Below are positions 42,864 through 49,427 of a stretch of DNA of 64,000 nt, piece after piece; position 1 is the first letter of the stretch, and the number at the start of each line of letters is the position of its first letter. The stretch is from Thermocatellispora tengchongensis. GTDB lineage: Bacteria; Actinomycetota; Actinomycetes; Streptosporangiales; Streptosporangiaceae. The stretch is taken from NCBI RefSeq assembly GCF_014202315.1, contig NZ_JACHGN010000017.1, positions 124,001 to 188,000 of the forward strand. The letters run 5' to 3'. The translations under genes and the position numbers were made by a program. Under the pieces are notes generated by a model that worked only from the letters and a program-made list of their open reading frames with translations, was not told where the DNA came from and made no database searches.

Positions 42864-44294
42864 TCAGGACGGCGGCACCGGTGGCGATGGCGGCGTCAAC
42901 GACCACCGGATGTCCGGCAGCAGCGCTCTGAGGGAGCGGCCCTTGATCGCGCCGTACCACAGGCCGGCCCCGTACGCGGCGTCGTCGAGGCGGCGGGCGA
43001 GGGCGAACCGGAACGGGTCGAGGTGGGCCCCGGTCCGGCGCAGGTCGGACACCGTGTCGAGCAGCGCCGCCGCGGCCACGGCCCGGCGCGTCCGGCGGGA
43101 GAACAGGCAGCCGAGCGCGGCCAGGGGCCACCAGTGGCGCAGCAGGAGCGCGGTGACCTGCCAGGCCGAGGCCACGGCGCCGTCGGCGGTCAGGACCAGC
43201 GCCAGCCGTACCGGGTGGTCGCTGCGGGCGAGCTTGGCCGACATCCGCGCCGCCGCCACGGCGAAGATCAGCGCGGCGACCGGGGCGGACCAGCGCCGCT
43301 GGGCCAGCAGCGCCAGGGCGAAGGCCGCGCTCCACGGGGTGAGCACGGCGGGGGCCACGTCCCGGCCGTGCCGCCGGGCCAGCAGGTCGGCGCCGGTGCC
43401 GTAGAACGCCTTGCGGCCCAGCCAGTCGGCGACGTCCGTACGGTGCTCGTGCCGCACGGTCGCGGCCGGCTCGTAGCGCACCCGCCATCCCGCGCCCGCG
43501 AGCCGCCACACCAGGTCCACGTCCTCGCCCACCCGCATCTCCGCGCTGAACCCCGCCCCGAGCGCGTCCACTCGGGCCAGGAGGCAGGCGCTGGGCACCC
43601 AGGAGACGGGCGCGCGGGGGCGGACGATCCCGGGCTCGATCCCCAGGTCCAGCGAGGAGCGCGCGTCCTCGTAGCGGCGGATCCACCGATCCCCGCCCGG
43701 CAGGCGCAGGCCCAGCACCCGCGGCGCGGCCACCGCCACGCGCGGGTCGGCGAAGTGCCGCAGCAGGGCCTCCAGCGCGCCGGGTTCCAGCACCACGTCG
43801 GAGTCGGCGAACAGCACGTACGGGGTGGTCACCCGGCGCAGCCCCGCGTTGCGGGCTCCGGCCGGCCCCAGGTTCTCGGCCAGCGGGACGAGGCCGGCCC
43901 CGTGCGCCGCCGCCACCCGCGCGACGGCCTCCGGGCGGGCCGAGGCGTCGTCCACCACGATCACCCGGTGCCGGCCGCCCAGGTTGGCCAGCAGCCGGTC
44001 CAGCGCGTGCGGGCGGTCGCGGACCGGGATCACCACCGTCACCTGCGACGGGTCGCCGTCGGGCAACTCGGCCACGATCGGGTCGGCCATGCCGATCTCC
44101 AGCAGCCGGTCGGCCAGCAGGGCCGAGGCGCGGTCGCGGACCCGGATCGTGCGGCCGGTGAGCAGTTTCCTGGCCGTCCTGCTCAGGTGGACCACACGGG
44201 TGGGCGCGCCGCCGACCAGGGTCCGGCCGCCGTCGCGCACGCGTACGCGCCGGTTCAGCCGCACCGCGAACCCCTCGGGCAGCGGGCCGGTCAC
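42864..44294 (-). CDS. mftF: Mycofactocin glycosyltransferase MftF
   Basis: 476 aa. The start GTG 44294 overlaps the SDR stop in GTGA. GT-A family 2 domain: TVVIPVRDRPHALDRLLANLGG near 80-101, VIVVDDAS, DSDVVLEPGALEALL, then RVGEDVDLVWRLAGAGW. C-terminal hydrophobic segments (AFALALLAQRRWSAPVAALIFAV) and about 470 aa length fit MftF. It adds beta-1,4-linked glucoses to the premycofactocin core. Last gene of the cluster. Confidence 0.92.
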   Translation of the reverse strand: MTGPLPEGFAVRLNRRVRVRDGGRTLVGGAPTRVVHLSRTARKLLTGRTIRVRDRASALLADRLLEIGMADPIVAELPDGDPSQVTVVIPVRDRPHALDRLLANLGGRHRVIVVDDASARPEAVARVAAAHGAGLVPLAENLGPAGARNAGLRRVTTPYVLFADSDVVLEPGALEALLRHFADPRVAVAAPRVLGLRLPGGDRWIRRYEDARSSLDLGIEPGIVRPRAPVSWVPSACLLARVDALGAGFSAEMRVGEDVDLVWRLAGAGWRVRYEPAATVRHEHRTDVADWLGRKAFYGTGADLLARRHGRDVAPAVLTPWSAAFALALLAQRRWSAPVAALIFAVAAARMSAKLARSDHPVRLALVLTADGAVASAWQVTALLLRHWWPLAALGCLFSRRTRRAVAAAALLDTVSDLRRTGAHLDPFRFALARRLDDAAYGAGLWYGAIKGRSLRALLPDIRWSLTPPSPPVPPS

Positions 44295-45100
44295 GGGGTG
44301 AACCCCCCGTCGGCCGAGACCACCGAGCCGTTGACCACGGCCCCGGCCGGGGAGCAGCAAAAGGCGATCACCTCGGCGATCTCGGCGGGCTCGATCAGGC
44401 GGCGCAGCAACTGCGAGCCGGCGAACTCCTCGGTGTCGTCCAGGCCGTAGACCCCGGCGGTGGCGGTGAGCATGTCGGTGCGGGTCGAGCCGGGGGAGAC
44501 CGCGGCGGCGGTGACGCCGGTGCCCACCAGGTCGGCCGCGAGCCCGCGCACCAGCCCGGCCACGGCGTGCTTGGCCGCGTTGTACGCCGCCAGCCGGAAC
44601 AGCCCGTGCGTCGCGGCGGCCGAGGCGACCGCGACGAACCGGCACCCGCCCGGCTCGGGCCCGGCCAGCATGTGCGGCACGCACACCGCCGCCGTGTGCC
44701 ACACCCCGGCGACGTCCACCTGCCACAGGGTGTCCAGGTGCTCGGGCGGGGTCTCCCACAGCGGCAGCCCGCCGGCGATGACCGCCGCGGCGGCCACGGC
44801 CGCGTCGAGCCGGCCGAACCGGTCCACCGCGGCGGCGGCGGCCTCGGCCAGGGCCTCGCGGTCGCGCACGTCGGCGACGTACGGCACGATCGTGTCCGGG
44901 TGCTCCGCGGCCAGCGACTTCAGGTCGGCGACGGTCGCGAGCGGGTAGGCGACGCCCGGCGGCCGGTCCGGACCGTCGCCGGCGCAGGAGTCCACGGCGA
45001 CCACCCGGTAGCCCTGGGCGCACAGGGCGCGCACGGTGGCGGCCCCGATCCCGCGGGCCGCCCCGGTCACCAGCGCGACCCGCCCGCTCACGTCCGCCAC
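44291..45100 (-). CDS. Mycofactocin-coupled short-chain dehydrogenase
   Basis: 269 aa from GTG 45100 (GGAGG upstream), overlapping mftE by 13 bases. SDR with TGAARGIG, YNAAK and a long insertion after the first strand (VDSCAGDGPDRPPGVAYPLATVADLKSLAAE). That insertion marks SDRs with a non-exchangeable NAD whose electrons leave through mycofactocin. It probably oxidises a secondary alcohol. Confidence 0.88.
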   Translation of the reverse strand: MADVSGRVALVTGAARGIGAATVRALCAQGYRVVAVDSCAGDGPDRPPGVAYPLATVADLKSLAAEHPDTIVPYVADVRDREALAEAAAAAVDRFGRLDAAVAAAAVIAGGLPLWETPPEHLDTLWQVDVAGVWHTAAVCVPHMLAGPEPGGCRFVAVASAAATHGLFRLAAYNAAKHAVAGLVRGLAADLVGTGVTAAAVSPGSTRTDMLTATAGVYGLDDTEEFAGSQLLRRLIEPAEIAEVIAFCCSPAGAVVNGSVVSADGGFTP

Positions 45101-45843
45101 GCCGCCTCCTCCGCGCGCAGCAGGCATCCGCTGCCGTCCGCCCGCCCGTGCCCGGCCCGCCCGGCCACGTCCGCGGCCATGCGGTCCAGCAGGTGCCGCC
45201 CGTACTCGGCGGAAGCCGCGGTCGGGTCGCCCAGCACGCCGGACGGCGACACGCCCGCGACGCCCCGGGCCACCAGGCCGGGCATCAGCTCGGCGAGCGG
45301 GGCCGAAACGCCCGGCTCGGCGCGGGACATGTTCACCAGCTCCGGGGCGAGGTGCAGCATGAGCGAGGTCTCGGCGTGCCCGGCGTGGGAGTCGGTGCCC
45401 GCGGCGTCACCGGTCTCGCACGGCGTCCACGCCACGTCGTGCCCCTCCTGCCGCAGATGCGCGACCGCGGCGGCGAGGGGGCGCAGGTTGCCGCCGTGCC
45501 CGTTCACGATCACCGTGCGGCCCGCCCACCCCGACAGCGAGCGGACCAGCTCCACCAGCAGGAACCGCAGCGCCTCGGCGCCGATCGACGCGGTGCCGGG
45601 GAAGCCCTGGTGCTCGCCGCTGGCGCCGTAGGCGACGGCCGGCGCCACCAGGACGTTCAGATCCGGCCGCGCCCGGCGCAGGCGTGCCGCCGCGGCCTCG
45701 GCCACCGCCGTGGCGATCGTGGTGTCGGTGTGCAGCGGCAGGTGCGGCCCGTGCTGCTCGGTGGAGCCGAGCGGCACCAGCACGCACGGCGAGGGCGGCA
45801 GCGCCGTCCAGGAGTGGTCCGCGAGGCCGGGCCGGGACGCCAT
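45088..45843 (-). CDS. mftE: Mycofactocin precursor peptide peptidase MftE
   Basis: 251 aa, creatininase family. Metal-binding pattern: VPLGSTEQHGPHLPLHTDT near 21-39, NGHGGN near 114, and HAGHAETSLML near 151. In the pathway it releases the C-terminal dipeptide-derived part of the MftC-processed precursor. Start ATG 45843, one base from the mftD stop. Confidence 0.93.
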   Translation of the reverse strand: MASRPGLADHSWTALPPSPCVLVPLGSTEQHGPHLPLHTDTTIATAVAEAAAARLRRARPDLNVLVAPAVAYGASGEHQGFPGTASIGAEALRFLLVELVRSLSGWAGRTVIVNGHGGNLRPLAAAVAHLRQEGHDVAWTPCETGDAAGTDSHAGHAETSLMLHLAPELVNMSRAEPGVSAPLAELMPGLVARGVAGVSPSGVLGDPTAASAEYGRHLLDRMAADVAGRAGHGRADGSGCLLRAEEAAWRT

Positions 45844-45844
45844 G

Positions 45845-47020
45845 CTACGCGCCGATCTCGCGGGTGAACCCCGGCGGGATCACCACGTCCCCGGGCCCCA
45901 GGTCGTGGACGGAGGCGCGGCCCAGGCCCAGCAGTGCCGAGTCGATGCCGTTGCGCATGATGTCCAGCACGTTCTCCACCCCGGCCTGGCCGTTGGCCGC
46001 CAGGCCCCACAGGTAGGCGCGCCCGATCATCACCGCCCGCGCGCCGAGCGCGAGCGCCTTGACGACGTCGCCGCCGCGCCGTACGCCGCCGTCGAGCAGC
46101 ACCTCCACCTGGTCGCCGACCGCGGCGGCGATGCCCGGCAGCAGCCGGATCGTGGCCGGTGTGCCGTCCAGGTTGTTGCCGCCGTGATTGGACACCGATA
46201 TCGCCGTGGCGCCGGCGTCCACCGCGCGGCGGGCGTCGTCGATGCGCGAGATGCCCTTGAGCATGAACGGGCCGTCCCATCGCTCCCGCATCCACCGCAC
46301 GTCCTCCCAGGTGGGGGGCGGGGTCTGCATCCACTCGCCGTACGCGCCGAAGAACGTGGGCGGCCGCTGTCCGGCCGGGACCACGTTCGGCACGGTCAGG
46401 TCGGGCAGGCGGCCGGTTCTGGCGTACGTGAGCAGCCACTGCGGCCTGGCCAGGCCCTGCGGTGCGAACCGGGCGATCGCCTTCAGGTCGAGCCGTTCGG
46501 GAATCCACGGGGAGCCCCAGTCGCGGCCGTGGGAGAACGTCCAGTCCAGCGTGACGATCAGGCCCTTGGCCCCGGCCGCGCGGGCGCGCTCCATCTGCGC
46601 GGCCATCTGGTCCTTGGTGCCCATCCAGTACATCTGGAAGAAGGTCTGCGGGTTGGCCGCCACGACCTCCTCCACCGGCTTGCTCGCGAAGTTGCTCAGC
46701 CCCATGGCGGTCCCGCGCGCCGCCGCCGCGCGGGCGACGGCCACCTCGCCGTCGGGGTGCACGGCCTGCACCCCGGTGGGCGAGATGATCACCGGCAGCG
46801 AGATCTGCTGCCCCATCACCGTGGTGGCGAGGTCGCGCTTGGCCGGCAGGTCGGCCACGTGCGGAGCGAAGCCGAGCGCCGCGAACGCCTCCATGTTGTC
46901 GCGGTACGTCCGGCCGCGCTCCGAGCCGGCCAGCAGCGCCTTGTACACCGACGGCGGCAGGTGACGGCGGGCCCTGCGCTGTGCCTCGGCCACCGTCTCG
47001 AACCATGCGTTGCGGGCCAT
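45845..47020 (-). CDS. mftD: Mycofactocin biosynthesis FMN-dependent deaminase MftD
   Basis: 391 aa, FMN alpha-hydroxy-acid oxidase fold: SLPVIISPTGVQAVHPDGEVAVARAAAARGT near 72-102, SVSNHGGNNLDGT near 270 (His of the active site), and VLLDGGVRRGGDVVKALALGARAVMIGR near 300. MftD oxidatively deaminates the cyclised dipeptide to the redox-active alpha-keto product (premycofactocin). Confidence 0.94.
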   Translation of the reverse strand: MARNAWFETVAEAQRRARRHLPPSVYKALLAGSERGRTYRDNMEAFAALGFAPHVADLPAKRDLATTVMGQQISLPVIISPTGVQAVHPDGEVAVARAAAARGTAMGLSNFASKPVEEVVAANPQTFFQMYWMGTKDQMAAQMERARAAGAKGLIVTLDWTFSHGRDWGSPWIPERLDLKAIARFAPQGLARPQWLLTYARTGRLPDLTVPNVVPAGQRPPTFFGAYGEWMQTPPPTWEDVRWMRERWDGPFMLKGISRIDDARRAVDAGATAISVSNHGGNNLDGTPATIRLLPGIAAAVGDQVEVLLDGGVRRGGDVVKALALGARAVMIGRAYLWGLAANGQAGVENVLDIMRNGIDSALLGLGRASVHDLGPGDVVIPPGFTREIGA

Positions 47021-47039: not shown

Positions 47040-48566
47040 TCAGGCGTCGGGGGAAGGGACGAATCCGGCCAGCGGGCTCTCCGCGCACGCCCGCGCCGGC
47101 GGGACGTCGGGGGACGGGCGGCGGCCGATGCGCACCGGGACCGGGCGGCTCCGGGGCCGGCGGGAGTGGTCCTGGCTGGGCCGGGGCGGGGTGCGGCCGG
47201 CCGCCGCGAGCGCGTCGCGGGCGTGCCCCTGAACGCACTCGGGGTCGGGCCCGTCCAGCGGCAGGCCGGTGAAGAACTTGGCCGCCATGCAGCCGCCCCG
47301 GCAGGAGTCGAAGAACCGGCAGCCGGTGCAGGCGCCGGAGGTCTGCGGCTCGCGCAGCTCGCGGAACAGCTCCGACCCGCGCCACACCCCGGCGAACCCG
47401 CCGTCGGTGAGCACGTTGCCGGCGCGGAAGGTGTCGTGGATCGCGAACGGGCAGGCGTAGACGTCGCCGACCGGGTCGATCAGGCACACCACCCGGCCCG
47501 CGCCGCACAGGTTCAGCCCGGGCAGCGACTCGCCGTACCCGGCCAGGTGGAAGAAGGAGTCGCCGGTCAGCACGTCCTCGCCGGCCCGCAGCAGCCACTC
47601 GTACAGCTCGCGCTGCTGCCCGGCCGTGGGGTGCAGCTCGTCCCACACGTCGGCGCCGCGGCCGGACGGGCGCAGCCGGGTGAGCCGGAGCGTCGCGCCG
47701 CGGGCGTCGGCGATGGCCTTGAACGCGTCGAGCTGGGAGACGTTCTCGCGGGTCATCACCACCGACAGCTTGGCGTCGGCGAACCCGGCCTCGGCCAGGT
47801 TGTCCAGCGCGCGGATCGCGGTCGCGTACGAGCCCGCCCCGCGCACCCGGTCGTTGACCTCGGCGGTGGCGCCGTCCAGCGAGACCTGCACGTCCACGTA
47901 GTCCATGCCCGCCAGAGCCCGCGCGCGCTCGGGGGTGATGCGCACGCCGTTGGTGGAGAACTTCACCCCCACCCGGTGGGCGACGGCGTACTCCAGCAGG
48001 TGCCAGAAGTCCGGCCGCACGGTCGGCTCGCCGCCGCCGATGTTGACGTAGAAGACCTGCATGGCCTGCAGCTCGTCGATGACCGCCTCGCACTGCGCGG
48101 TGGTCAGCTCGCGCGAGTCGCGCCTCCCGGAGGAGGACAGGCAGTGCACGCAGGACAGGTTGCAGGCGTAGGTAAGCTCCCAGGTCAGGCAGATGGGCGC
48201 GGCCAGCCCCTCCTCGAAGCGGCGGGCGAGCGACGCGCTCGCCCCCCGGGCGGCCGCCGTCTTCGCGGGCGTTCCGGGGGCGACCGGGGCCGGGGCGGTA
48301 CGGGGCCGGATCATGTCGGCCGACGCCAGCCCGCGCAGCGCGCCGGCGTACGCGGGCCACTGCTCGGCGGGCACCCCCGCCTCGGCCAGCGCGCCGCGGG
48401 CGTCGGGGTGGGCGGCGAGCGCGCGCACCACCGCGGCCAGCTCGCCCCGCTTGAGGAAGGTCAGCCGCCGGTTGCCGAAGTGGTAGGCCAGCGCCCCGAA
48501 CGGCTCGGGGCGCAGCGCCACGCCGGGGGACAGCTCCCAGGCGACGTCCAGCGGGTTCGCGGTCAT
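47040..48566 (-). CDS. mftC: Fused mycofactocin chaperone and radical SAM maturase (MftB-MftC)
   Basis: 508 aa in one frame. Residues 1-88 match MftB, the precursor-binding wing (MTANPLDVAWELSPGVALRPEPFGALAYHFGNRRLTFLKRG). A Pro/Ala linker of about 25 residues follows, then MftC with CNLSCVHC (Cys 135, 139, 142) for the [4Fe-4S] cluster, GGGEPTVRPDF, and the SPASM cysteines CTGCRFFDSCRGGC. In most genomes mftB and mftC are separate. The only internal ATG (48314, Met85) has no ribosome site. A ~45-residue basic, Pro-rich C-terminal tail is present. Confidence 0.9.
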   Translation of the reverse strand: MTANPLDVAWELSPGVALRPEPFGALAYHFGNRRLTFLKRGELAAVVRALAAHPDARGALAEAGVPAEQWPAYAGALRGLASADMIRPRTAPAPVAPGTPAKTAAARGASASLARRFEEGLAAPICLTWELTYACNLSCVHCLSSSGRRDSRELTTAQCEAVIDELQAMQVFYVNIGGGEPTVRPDFWHLLEYAVAHRVGVKFSTNGVRITPERARALAGMDYVDVQVSLDGATAEVNDRVRGAGSYATAIRALDNLAEAGFADAKLSVVMTRENVSQLDAFKAIADARGATLRLTRLRPSGRGADVWDELHPTAGQQRELYEWLLRAGEDVLTGDSFFHLAGYGESLPGLNLCGAGRVVCLIDPVGDVYACPFAIHDTFRAGNVLTDGGFAGVWRGSELFRELREPQTSGACTGCRFFDSCRGGCMAAKFFTGLPLDGPDPECVQGHARDALAAAGRTPPRPSQDHSRRPRSRPVPVRIGRRPSPDVPPARACAESPLAGFVPSPDA

Positions 48567-48579
48567 GTCGGGTGGCCGC

Positions 48580-48684
48580 TCAGTAGACGCCGCACATGCC
48601 GTCGATGGACACCTCTTCGAGCAGGGTCTCCTCGGTGAGCTCCTCGGGCGCGGTCTGGTCGGCGGCGGTGATCCGGTCGTCCAT
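48580..48684 (-). CDS. mftA: Mycofactocin precursor peptide MftA
   Basis: 34-residue peptide. It ends IDGMCGVY, with the Val-Tyr pair that MftC decarboxylates and links. GAGGAG lies six bases before ATG 48684. It is rich in Glu/Thr in the leader (EELTEETLLEEVS), as in known MftA. It lies 13 bp before the MftB-MftC gene. Confidence 0.97.
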   Translation of the reverse strand: MDDRITAADQTAPEELTEETLLEEVSIDGMCGVY

Positions 48685-48797: not shown

Positions 48798-49427
48798 GTG
48801 CTTGTGAACGCGGGGCAGACCCGGGGCCGCCGCCCCACCACCGACCACGCCGCGATCGAGCGGGCCGCCTTCCGGCTCTTCGCCGAGCGGGGCTTCGAGG
48901 AGACCACGGTGGACGCCATCGCCGAAGCGGCCGGGATCGCGCGGCGCACGCTGTTCCGCTACTACCCCTCCAAGAACGACATCCCCTGGGGCCGGTTCGA
49001 GGCCGGGCTGGCGCACCTGCGCGAGTTCCTGCGCGCCATGCCCCACGACATCCCGGTCTGGCGGGCGGTGCACCGGGCCGTGCTCGACTTCAACCGGCTC
49101 GACGAGGCGGCGGTCCCGCAGCACCGCGAGCGCATGCGGCTGCTGCTCACGACCCCCGCGCTCCAGGCCCACTCCGCCCTGAAGTACGCCGCCTGGCGCC
49201 GGGTCATCGCCGAGTACGTCGCGGTCCGTCGCGGCCTGTCGCCCGACGACCTGCTGCCGCGCACGGTCGGGCACGTCAGCCTGGGCATGGCGCTGTCGGC
49301 GTACGAGCAGTGGCTCGACAGCGAGGACCTGTCGCTGTCCGAACTGCTGGACTCCGCGCTGTCGGGCCTGCGCCTGTACCTGTGCGAGGATCACGACGGC
49401 CGTCACCCCGCGGCGGGCGGCGGGTAG
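48798..49427 (+). CDS. mftR: Mycofactocin regulator MftR (TetR family)
   Basis: 209 aa from GTG 48798; GTG 48804 is also possible. The HTH reads TTDHAAIERAAFRLFAERGFEETTVDAIAEAAGIARRTLFRYYPSKNDIPWG, strikingly like MftR of mycobacteria. It is divergent from mftA with about 110 bp between, so it should repress the cluster. Confidence 0.9.
   Translation: MLVNAGQTRGRRPTTDHAAIERAAFRLFAERGFEETTVDAIAEAAGIARRTLFRYYPSKNDIPWGRFEAGLAHLREFLRAMPHDIPVWRAVHRAVLDFNRLDEAAVPQHRERMRLLLTTPALQAHSALKYAAWRRVIAEYVAVRRGLSPDDLLPRTVGHVSLGMALSAYEQWLDSEDLSLSELLDSALSGLRLYLCEDHDGRHPAAGGG

Follow-up and report, generated by a model that had tools for sequence, protein, structure and literature searches.

Does a reading frame that joins the mycofactocin chaperone MftB to the radical SAM enzyme MftC encode a working single-chain maturase, or does it reflect an accident of one assembly? 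The question is raised by the window, a stretch of 64,000 nucleotides of the Thermocatellispora tengchongensis genome, which carries a complete mycofactocin (mft) cluster: mftA, mftB and mftC (fused), mftD, mftE and mftF were all matched (Table 1). As separate proteins, MftB is reported to bind the precursor MftA at ∼120 nM, but MftC only at ∼2 µM (PMC5264612), and both MftC reactions are described as depending on MftB (PMC8728441). PqqD follows the same pattern, with values of 0.39 µM for PqqA and 4.5 µM for PqqE (PMC10906245).

Table 1. Features of the mycofactocin cluster and of the mftBC product, in window coordinates.
Feature	Position	Strand	Details
mftF glycosyltransferase	42864..44294	minus	TIGR03965 427 bits on 42864-44285
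mycofactocin-coupled SDR	44291..45127	minus	TIGR04504 396.2 bits, NF040491 392.8 bits
mftE, creatininase-like peptidase	45088..45843	minus	TIGR03964 304.8 bits
mftD, pre-mycofactocin synthase	45845..47020	minus	TIGR03966 714.5 bits
mftBC (fused MftB-MftC)	47040..48566	minus	508 aa, ATG start, TGA stop
MftC C-terminal tail	47043..47213	minus	residues 452-508; conserved DHS and C-A-E-S-P-L motifs
MftC radical SAM/SPASM domain	47214..48221	minus	residues 116-451, TIGR03962 646.6 bits
linker	48222..48299	minus	residues 90-115, between TIGR03967 and TIGR03962 matches
MftB (RiPP recognition element) domain	48300..48548	minus	residues 7-89, TIGR03967 100.7 bits
mftA, precursor	48580..48684	minus	34 aa, ending IDGMCGVY; TIGR03969 50.8 bits, Pfam PF23709
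mftR, TetR-family regulator, divergent	48798..49427	plus	TIGR03968 277.9 bits

Architecture of mftBC and its relatives

Translation of the minus strand from 48566 to 47040 (stop codon included) gave 508 residues without an internal stop. The NCBIfam profile for MftB, TIGR03967, was matched by residues 7-89 over positions 3-85 of its 85 (100.7 bits against a cut-off of 33), and that for MftC, TIGR03962, by residues 116-451 over positions 3-338 of 339 (646.6 bits against a cut-off of 265); the product thus carries whole-model, above-cut-off matches to both proteins. Pfam placed Radical_SAM at residues 130-279 and SPASM at 354-416. The radical SAM CX3CX2C motif reads CNLSCVHC (135-142), and cysteines 354, 372, 413, 416, 422, 426 and 444 supply the seven of the SPASM motif, given as CX9-15GX4C-CX2CX5CX3C-C (PMC6231123), so that both cysteine signatures of an MftC are present. 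The MftB core residues R, P, E, F, G, A, L, Y, R and L are conserved to 97-100% in 34 fused sequences and, at the same positions, to 96-100% in 143 separate ones. A first-pass annotation of this DNA had proposed that MftB and MftC are fused in one protein through a Pro/Ala linker of ∼25 residues. Both points held: a single frame covers the two profiles nearly end to end, and the linker between them is 26 residues long (90-115; TAPAPVAPGTPAKTAAARGASASLAR) and rich in Ala, Pro and Thr. The 34-residue local MftA which it had named was likewise found (48684-48580; TIGR03969, 50.8 bits). The window's mftE is the only above-cut-off mftE match in a profile search of its own genome, and the start of mftF was read by eye from the translation as a GTG at 44294.

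The tails of MftC proteins, fused or separate, are variable and hold two conserved motifs outside TIGR03962: D-[HR]-[ST] is present in 166 of 175 distinct tails and C-x(1-3)-P-L in 150, and a single cysteine occurs in 149 of the 175.

An AlphaFold2 model of the mftBC product, built from 72 sequences, was of middling confidence (mean pLDDT 69.9, pTM 0.67), and its domain packing is not firm. The N-terminal part, four strands followed by three helices (residues 10-82), was mostly confident, with the MftB domain divided into strands at 10-38 and helices at 41-82. Much of the radical SAM barrel core was confident as well, but the SPASM part and the tail were not. Linker residues 95-110 were modelled with a pLDDT below 50, as would be expected of a flexible tether. 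The best fold matches in the PDB were SuiB (5v1s; Z 24.0, rmsd 7.1 over 355 residues) and SkfB (Z 23.3, rmsd 6.0 over 338 residues), in alignments that extend from the N-terminal domain to SPASM/Twitch (model residues 10-416 and 14-410 respectively); the large rmsd values imply that the placement of the two domains either differs or is poorly predicted. PqqE, which has no recognition element, ranked below them (Z 20.6, rmsd 3.8 over 286 residues), as did CteB (Z 18.9-19.2), whose match covers the barrel only and is silent on CteB's recognition element. A sequence search of our PDB copy returned no solved MftB or MftC, the nearest entry being PqqE (E 5e-15). As modelled, mftBC combines a recognition-element fold, a radical SAM domain and SPASM/Twitch in one chain, the arrangement of SuiB, SkfB and CteB.

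Fusions of a recognition element to a radical SAM enzyme are familiar from these three proteins (PMC6231123, PMC10906245), and RRE-Finder is reported to have found such elements fused repeatedly across RiPP classes. SuiB, SkfB and CteB share with mftBC the order recognition element, radical SAM, SPASM/Twitch, but differ from it in substrate and chemistry. Their recognition elements are joined to the barrel by 5 (SuiB), 9 (SkfB) and 22 residues (CteB, printed as 'CteA'; PMC6231123), whereas our model predicts 43 residues (83-125) between helix 67-82 and strand 126-130 of mftBC. The PqqC-PqqD fusion of Methylorubrum extorquens resembles mftBC in that a recognition-element chaperone is fused to an enzyme of a cofactor pathway; PqqD is joined there, however, to PqqC, which is described as taking no part in the first step, and not to the radical SAM enzyme PqqE (PMC10906245). 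With the separate MftB and MftC of mycobacteria and most other actinobacteria sampled, mftBC has in common both full profiles, the cluster and the precursor ending; it differs in being one polypeptide, with a 26-residue linker and no Shine-Dalgarno-preceded mftC start at the junction. What appears to be new here is the single-chain form of the mycofactocin maturase, fusions of recognition elements to radical SAM enzymes being known as such. No mention of an MftB-MftC fusion was found in the parts of the open-licence mycofactocin literature that our search covered (including PMC3023750, PMC12710340, PMC7470986, PMC8728441, PMC11778925, PMC5264612 and PMC9012708), and databases may already show the fused proteins as two-domain entries.

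Recurrence and origins of the fusion

A survey of mftB-mftC fusions across genomes, as proposed in the first-pass annotation, found this architecture in 11 genomes of the window's family, in 87 Nocardia genomes and in one metagenome-assembled genome. Within the family, which by the names of its members corresponds to Streptosporangiaceae in the broad GTDB sense, MftB was present in 86 of 341 genomes (88 places), among them Acrocarpospora pleiomorpha (G063, L084), Planobispora rosea (G233, L085) and Planobispora longispora (G232, L086), and was fused to MftC in 11 of these 86 (11 of the 88 places). The family fusions span seven genus codes (g1, g4, g28, g72, g73, g79 and g80), the window's own genus being represented by one genome; genus g73 holds both forms, fused in G125 and separate in G124. 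A long open frame alone is insufficient as proof of fusion, and a few fusions may have been missed where a contig end truncates the frame. Inspection of the DNA at all 13 family places with a frame of at least 440 residues found 11 fused; in G171, one stop codon lies between the genes. On contig 60 of G083 (L059, L182), an MftB match of 95 bits lies in an open frame of 742 residues, and no MftC was found in the 6.5 kb around this match.

The samples drawn at higher ranks overlap with that of the family and with one another. The order sample, whose 345 genomes almost coincide with those of the family, yielded no additional long frame. MftB was found in 113 of 394 genomes of the class sample, where 7 of the 12 frames of at least 440 residues were fused, five of them in the window's family and two in g100 (Nocardia). 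The phylum sample had MftB in 53 of 396 genomes and four fusions among six such frames, including a single new one in the Actinomycetota metagenome-assembled genome G986.

Fusions were also counted in Nocardia, where MftB occurs in 129 of 150 genomes (138 places) and MftC in 129. A fusion was called when the MftB and MftC matches lay on one contig, in phase and in frames of equal length; by this rule, 87 of the 129 MftB-positive genomes are fused. Inspection of the DNA at eight of the 87 called places (L064, L067, L184, L186, L188, L190, L200 and L201) found all of them fused, whereas none of the 14 places inspected among the remaining 51 with MftB was; a contig end truncates one of these 51, in G1107, and leaves its status uncertain. 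MftB outside a fused frame was present in 46 genomes, and both forms in four. Twenty named Nocardia loci from a tblastn set were also all fused, some of them in genomes already counted. This set, the best 80 loci to the fused query among the matches listed, contains 24 fusions and is biased to fused or in-frame pairs; it served for names and trees, not for prevalence.

MftB and MftC were separate at 143 distinct junctions. The window's fusion is not unique, given the seven genus codes and the 87 of 129 Nocardia genomes. With so many separate pairs, one of which (G124) shares a genus code with a fused one (G125), the fusion is dispensable for function.

A tree of MftC domains with 167 rows, from which near-identical rows had been dropped beforehand, contained three changes between fused and separate. 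A second tree of 63 rows, picked after the larger one had been seen, grouped the family fusions in one clade (98/94) and the Nocardia fusions in another (100/100), with the fused metagenome-assembled genome standing apart from both. Bootstrap trees of these 63 rows gave three changes over the whole 5-95% range. Neither fused clade contained a separate row, and the separate pairs of Nocardia in the trees lie elsewhere. A single origin of the two main fused clades was ruled out on the 63-row tree, in which their forced union was rejected (p-AU 0.0064). The third origin concerns the one metagenome-assembled genome (L126 = L166), which sits on a long branch at a weak fork (85/60). Judged from these trees, the single-chain maturase appears, with good support, to have evolved at least twice, and probably three times.

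The neighbours of the two clades suggest different routes. In L045, one of the nearest separate relatives within the window's family, the genes form a coupled pair that overlaps in an ATGA, which places them in different frames and is preceded by a GGAGGAGAAG stretch; neither the overlap nor the stretch is seen at the window junction. The family fusion therefore probably arose through a short indel. Among the neighbours of Nocardia, Rhodococcus koreensis, Gordonia lacunae and Williamsia limnetica carry both genes in one frame with a single stop between them, so that loss of the stop may possibly have produced the Nocardia fusion. Relatives in g42, under the same family code as these in-frame pairs, have the two genes in different frames. 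Separate pairs of the one-stop, in-frame kind, each one stop loss away from fusion, were seen in Pseudonocardia, Amycolatopsis, Prauserella, Saccharomonospora and others; they make up 26 of 197 loci (including L109, L111-L117, L120, L121, L123 and L125), with copies kept and in a set biased to in-frame pairs.

Copy number, junction starts and alternative explanations

The fused frame carries an above-cut-off MftC in all 14 fused genomes tested, and in 13 of them this is the only such MftC. Likewise, a single MftC match (E 1e-100 or better) is present in 80 of the 87 Nocardia genomes with the fusion. Most fused genomes therefore offer only the fused chain as a candidate for the two roles. Of the seven Nocardia genomes with an extra MftC match, four carry a separate MftB as well, whereas the Nocardia MftB search listed no second match in the other three (G1161, G1194 and G1195). 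The extra MftC-like matches of G1194 (C1:19949-20800) and G1195 (C1:3923861-3924739) are divergent, scoring 390 and 419 bits over profile positions 6-300, and that of G1161 (C190:35403-36293) is partial, with 552 bits over positions 42-338.

The exception among the 14 is the genome of the window itself: it also encodes a separate mftB/mftC pair, and the fusion is thus not this cell's only route. The second cluster, on contig 20 (L063, 8500-13060), comprises mftA2, separate mftB2 and mftC2, mftD2 and mftF2. Its MftC is 71% and its MftB 60% identical to the window's proteins, and in the MftC tree it groups with G281 of the window's family and with Streptomyces ochraceiscleroticus. The 18 kb inspected around this cluster yielded no mftE, and contig 6 holds two creatininase-like matches of lower score; the two coexisting systems may share MftE. 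A gene resembling iron-containing alcohol dehydrogenases, named by eye, adjoins the contig-20 cluster.

Since one fused and one separate system, with MftC proteins of different lineages, occur together in this genome, the main role of fusion might be to keep two mycofactocin systems in a cell insulated from each other, and not to make either of them faster. We consider this unlikely: only one MftC is present in 13 of the 14 fused genomes tested and a separate MftB in only four of the 87 fused Nocardia genomes, so insulation cannot be the general reason for the fusion.

More improbable still is that the frame gives two products, with MftC also made alone by internal initiation alongside the fused chain. 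An in-frame ATG (48314) does lie close to the junction, and the first-pass annotation had pointed out that it lacks a ribosome site. That observation is correct, as no Shine-Dalgarno sequence precedes 48314 at the window junction. This ATG encodes M85, the Met of a D-M-I motif located at the end of the MftB domain and invariant in 13 aligned fused proteins. The M85 column holds Met in 97% of 34 fused MftB sequences, compared with 71% of 143 separate ones. For a conserved MftB residue the absence of a ribosome site is expected, and on sequence grounds a domain residue would explain this ATG better than a lost start. A product initiated there would, by the model, begin beside the last MftB strand (E86-88). 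On the identity of the residue and the missing Shine-Dalgarno we reject 48314 as an internal start, and no other in-frame start was found at the window's MftB-MftC junction.

Junctions were also scored for an in-frame start with a GGAG, GAGG or AGGA core 4-16 bases upstream, after removal of identical junctions and of loci without an MftB or MftC match. Such starts were present at 3 of 38 distinct fused junctions versus 113 of 143 distinct separate ones. The three fused exceptions, which offer internal initiation its other support, are all from Nocardia (L097, L186 and L190), and internal starts may be used at these loci; the window's junction is not among them.

An error of frame or assembly, or a decaying pseudogene whose work is done by the contig-20 pair, can safely be set aside even though that second pair is complete, as like architecture is found in 10 more family genomes that have no other above-cut-off MftC, the catalytic cysteines of mftBC are intact, and the contig-20 cluster lacks an mftE within 18 kb while the window holds the only one above cut-off. 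The hidden frameshift or stop that had been named as grounds for refutation was not borne out, there being no internal stop and the same architecture in many genomes; recurrence in 11 family and 87 Nocardia genomes with many linker lengths, all in frame, makes a frameshift artefact very unlikely, and we reject it.

Linkers and the proposed working of the tethered enzyme

Measured from profile to profile, linkers span 23-90 residues in the 38 distinct fused junctions (median 31) and 24-88 residues at the 87 Nocardia places (median 29), with none below 23 in either set. If the separate pairs were simply joined, 93 of 143 would fall below 23 residues, in sums that are rough because the start of separate MftC was set by rule. 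For the nearest separate sisters, joined lengths would be 20-38 residues in the family (six loci) and 14-37 near Nocardia (13 loci, nine of them below 23). Part of the linker floor may therefore be inherited; inheritance may explain the floor of the family, and less so that of Nocardia, in a comparison of only two or three origins. Third-position GC is 0.85 in linkers and 0.89 in MftC (44 loci, copies kept), which is weakly consistent with coding. By eye, the long Nocardia linkers of L097 and L190 contain repeated GTGAGCGAGCGTCAGCGAG-like stretches and the linkers of genus g72 (L049, L050) GTAAQ-like peptide repeats; linkers seem to lengthen as short repeats are inserted. We suggest only tentatively, and could well be wrong, that joining MftB covalently to MftC is a stable arrangement that recurs and depends on a tether of minimum length, reached from two or three origins, probably by two routes.

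Collectively, one frame, the absence of a competing start at the junction and a sole MftC in 13 of 14 genomes support the earlier proposal of a single-chain maturase. We are confident that mftBC encodes such a predicted mycofactocin maturase, in which the weak contact between MftB and MftC has been made covalent in a build like that of SuiB and SkfB.

We infer that translation yields the whole fused chain, that this chain is an active enzyme, and that tethering works through a higher local concentration. As the RiPP recognition element at the N-terminus, the MftB domain would bind the MftA leader, and the flexible Ala/Pro linker of ∼26 residues would hold MftB permanently beside the radical SAM/SPASM active site of MftC. 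The leader would stay on MftB while the C-terminal Val-Tyr of MftA enters the barrel for two SAM-dependent turns, first oxidative decarboxylation, then C-C cross-linking, and MftB and MftC would not have to meet as free proteins. The fusion would turn their weak (∼2 µM) contact into an intramolecular one; a linker this long should keep MftB near MftC at a local concentration far above 2 µM. With one MftB and one MftC in 13 fused genomes, there would be no free MftB to escort the peptide to MftE or MftD, and where no free MftB is made, the cycle would end by product release rather than by chaperone exchange.

The difficulty in the study of MftC is to keep the weak three-part MftA-MftB-MftC complex together. 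A natural single-chain form, present in several genera, would be a ready construct for crystallography or cryo-EM, and its linkers of 23-90 residues provide a natural length series for how leader binding reaches the radical site. If a minimum tether is indeed needed, MftB would act only with MftC in the fused lineages, and the attached MftB would have to swing between loading and docking positions. The repeated fusion itself points to MftC as the essential partner of MftB.
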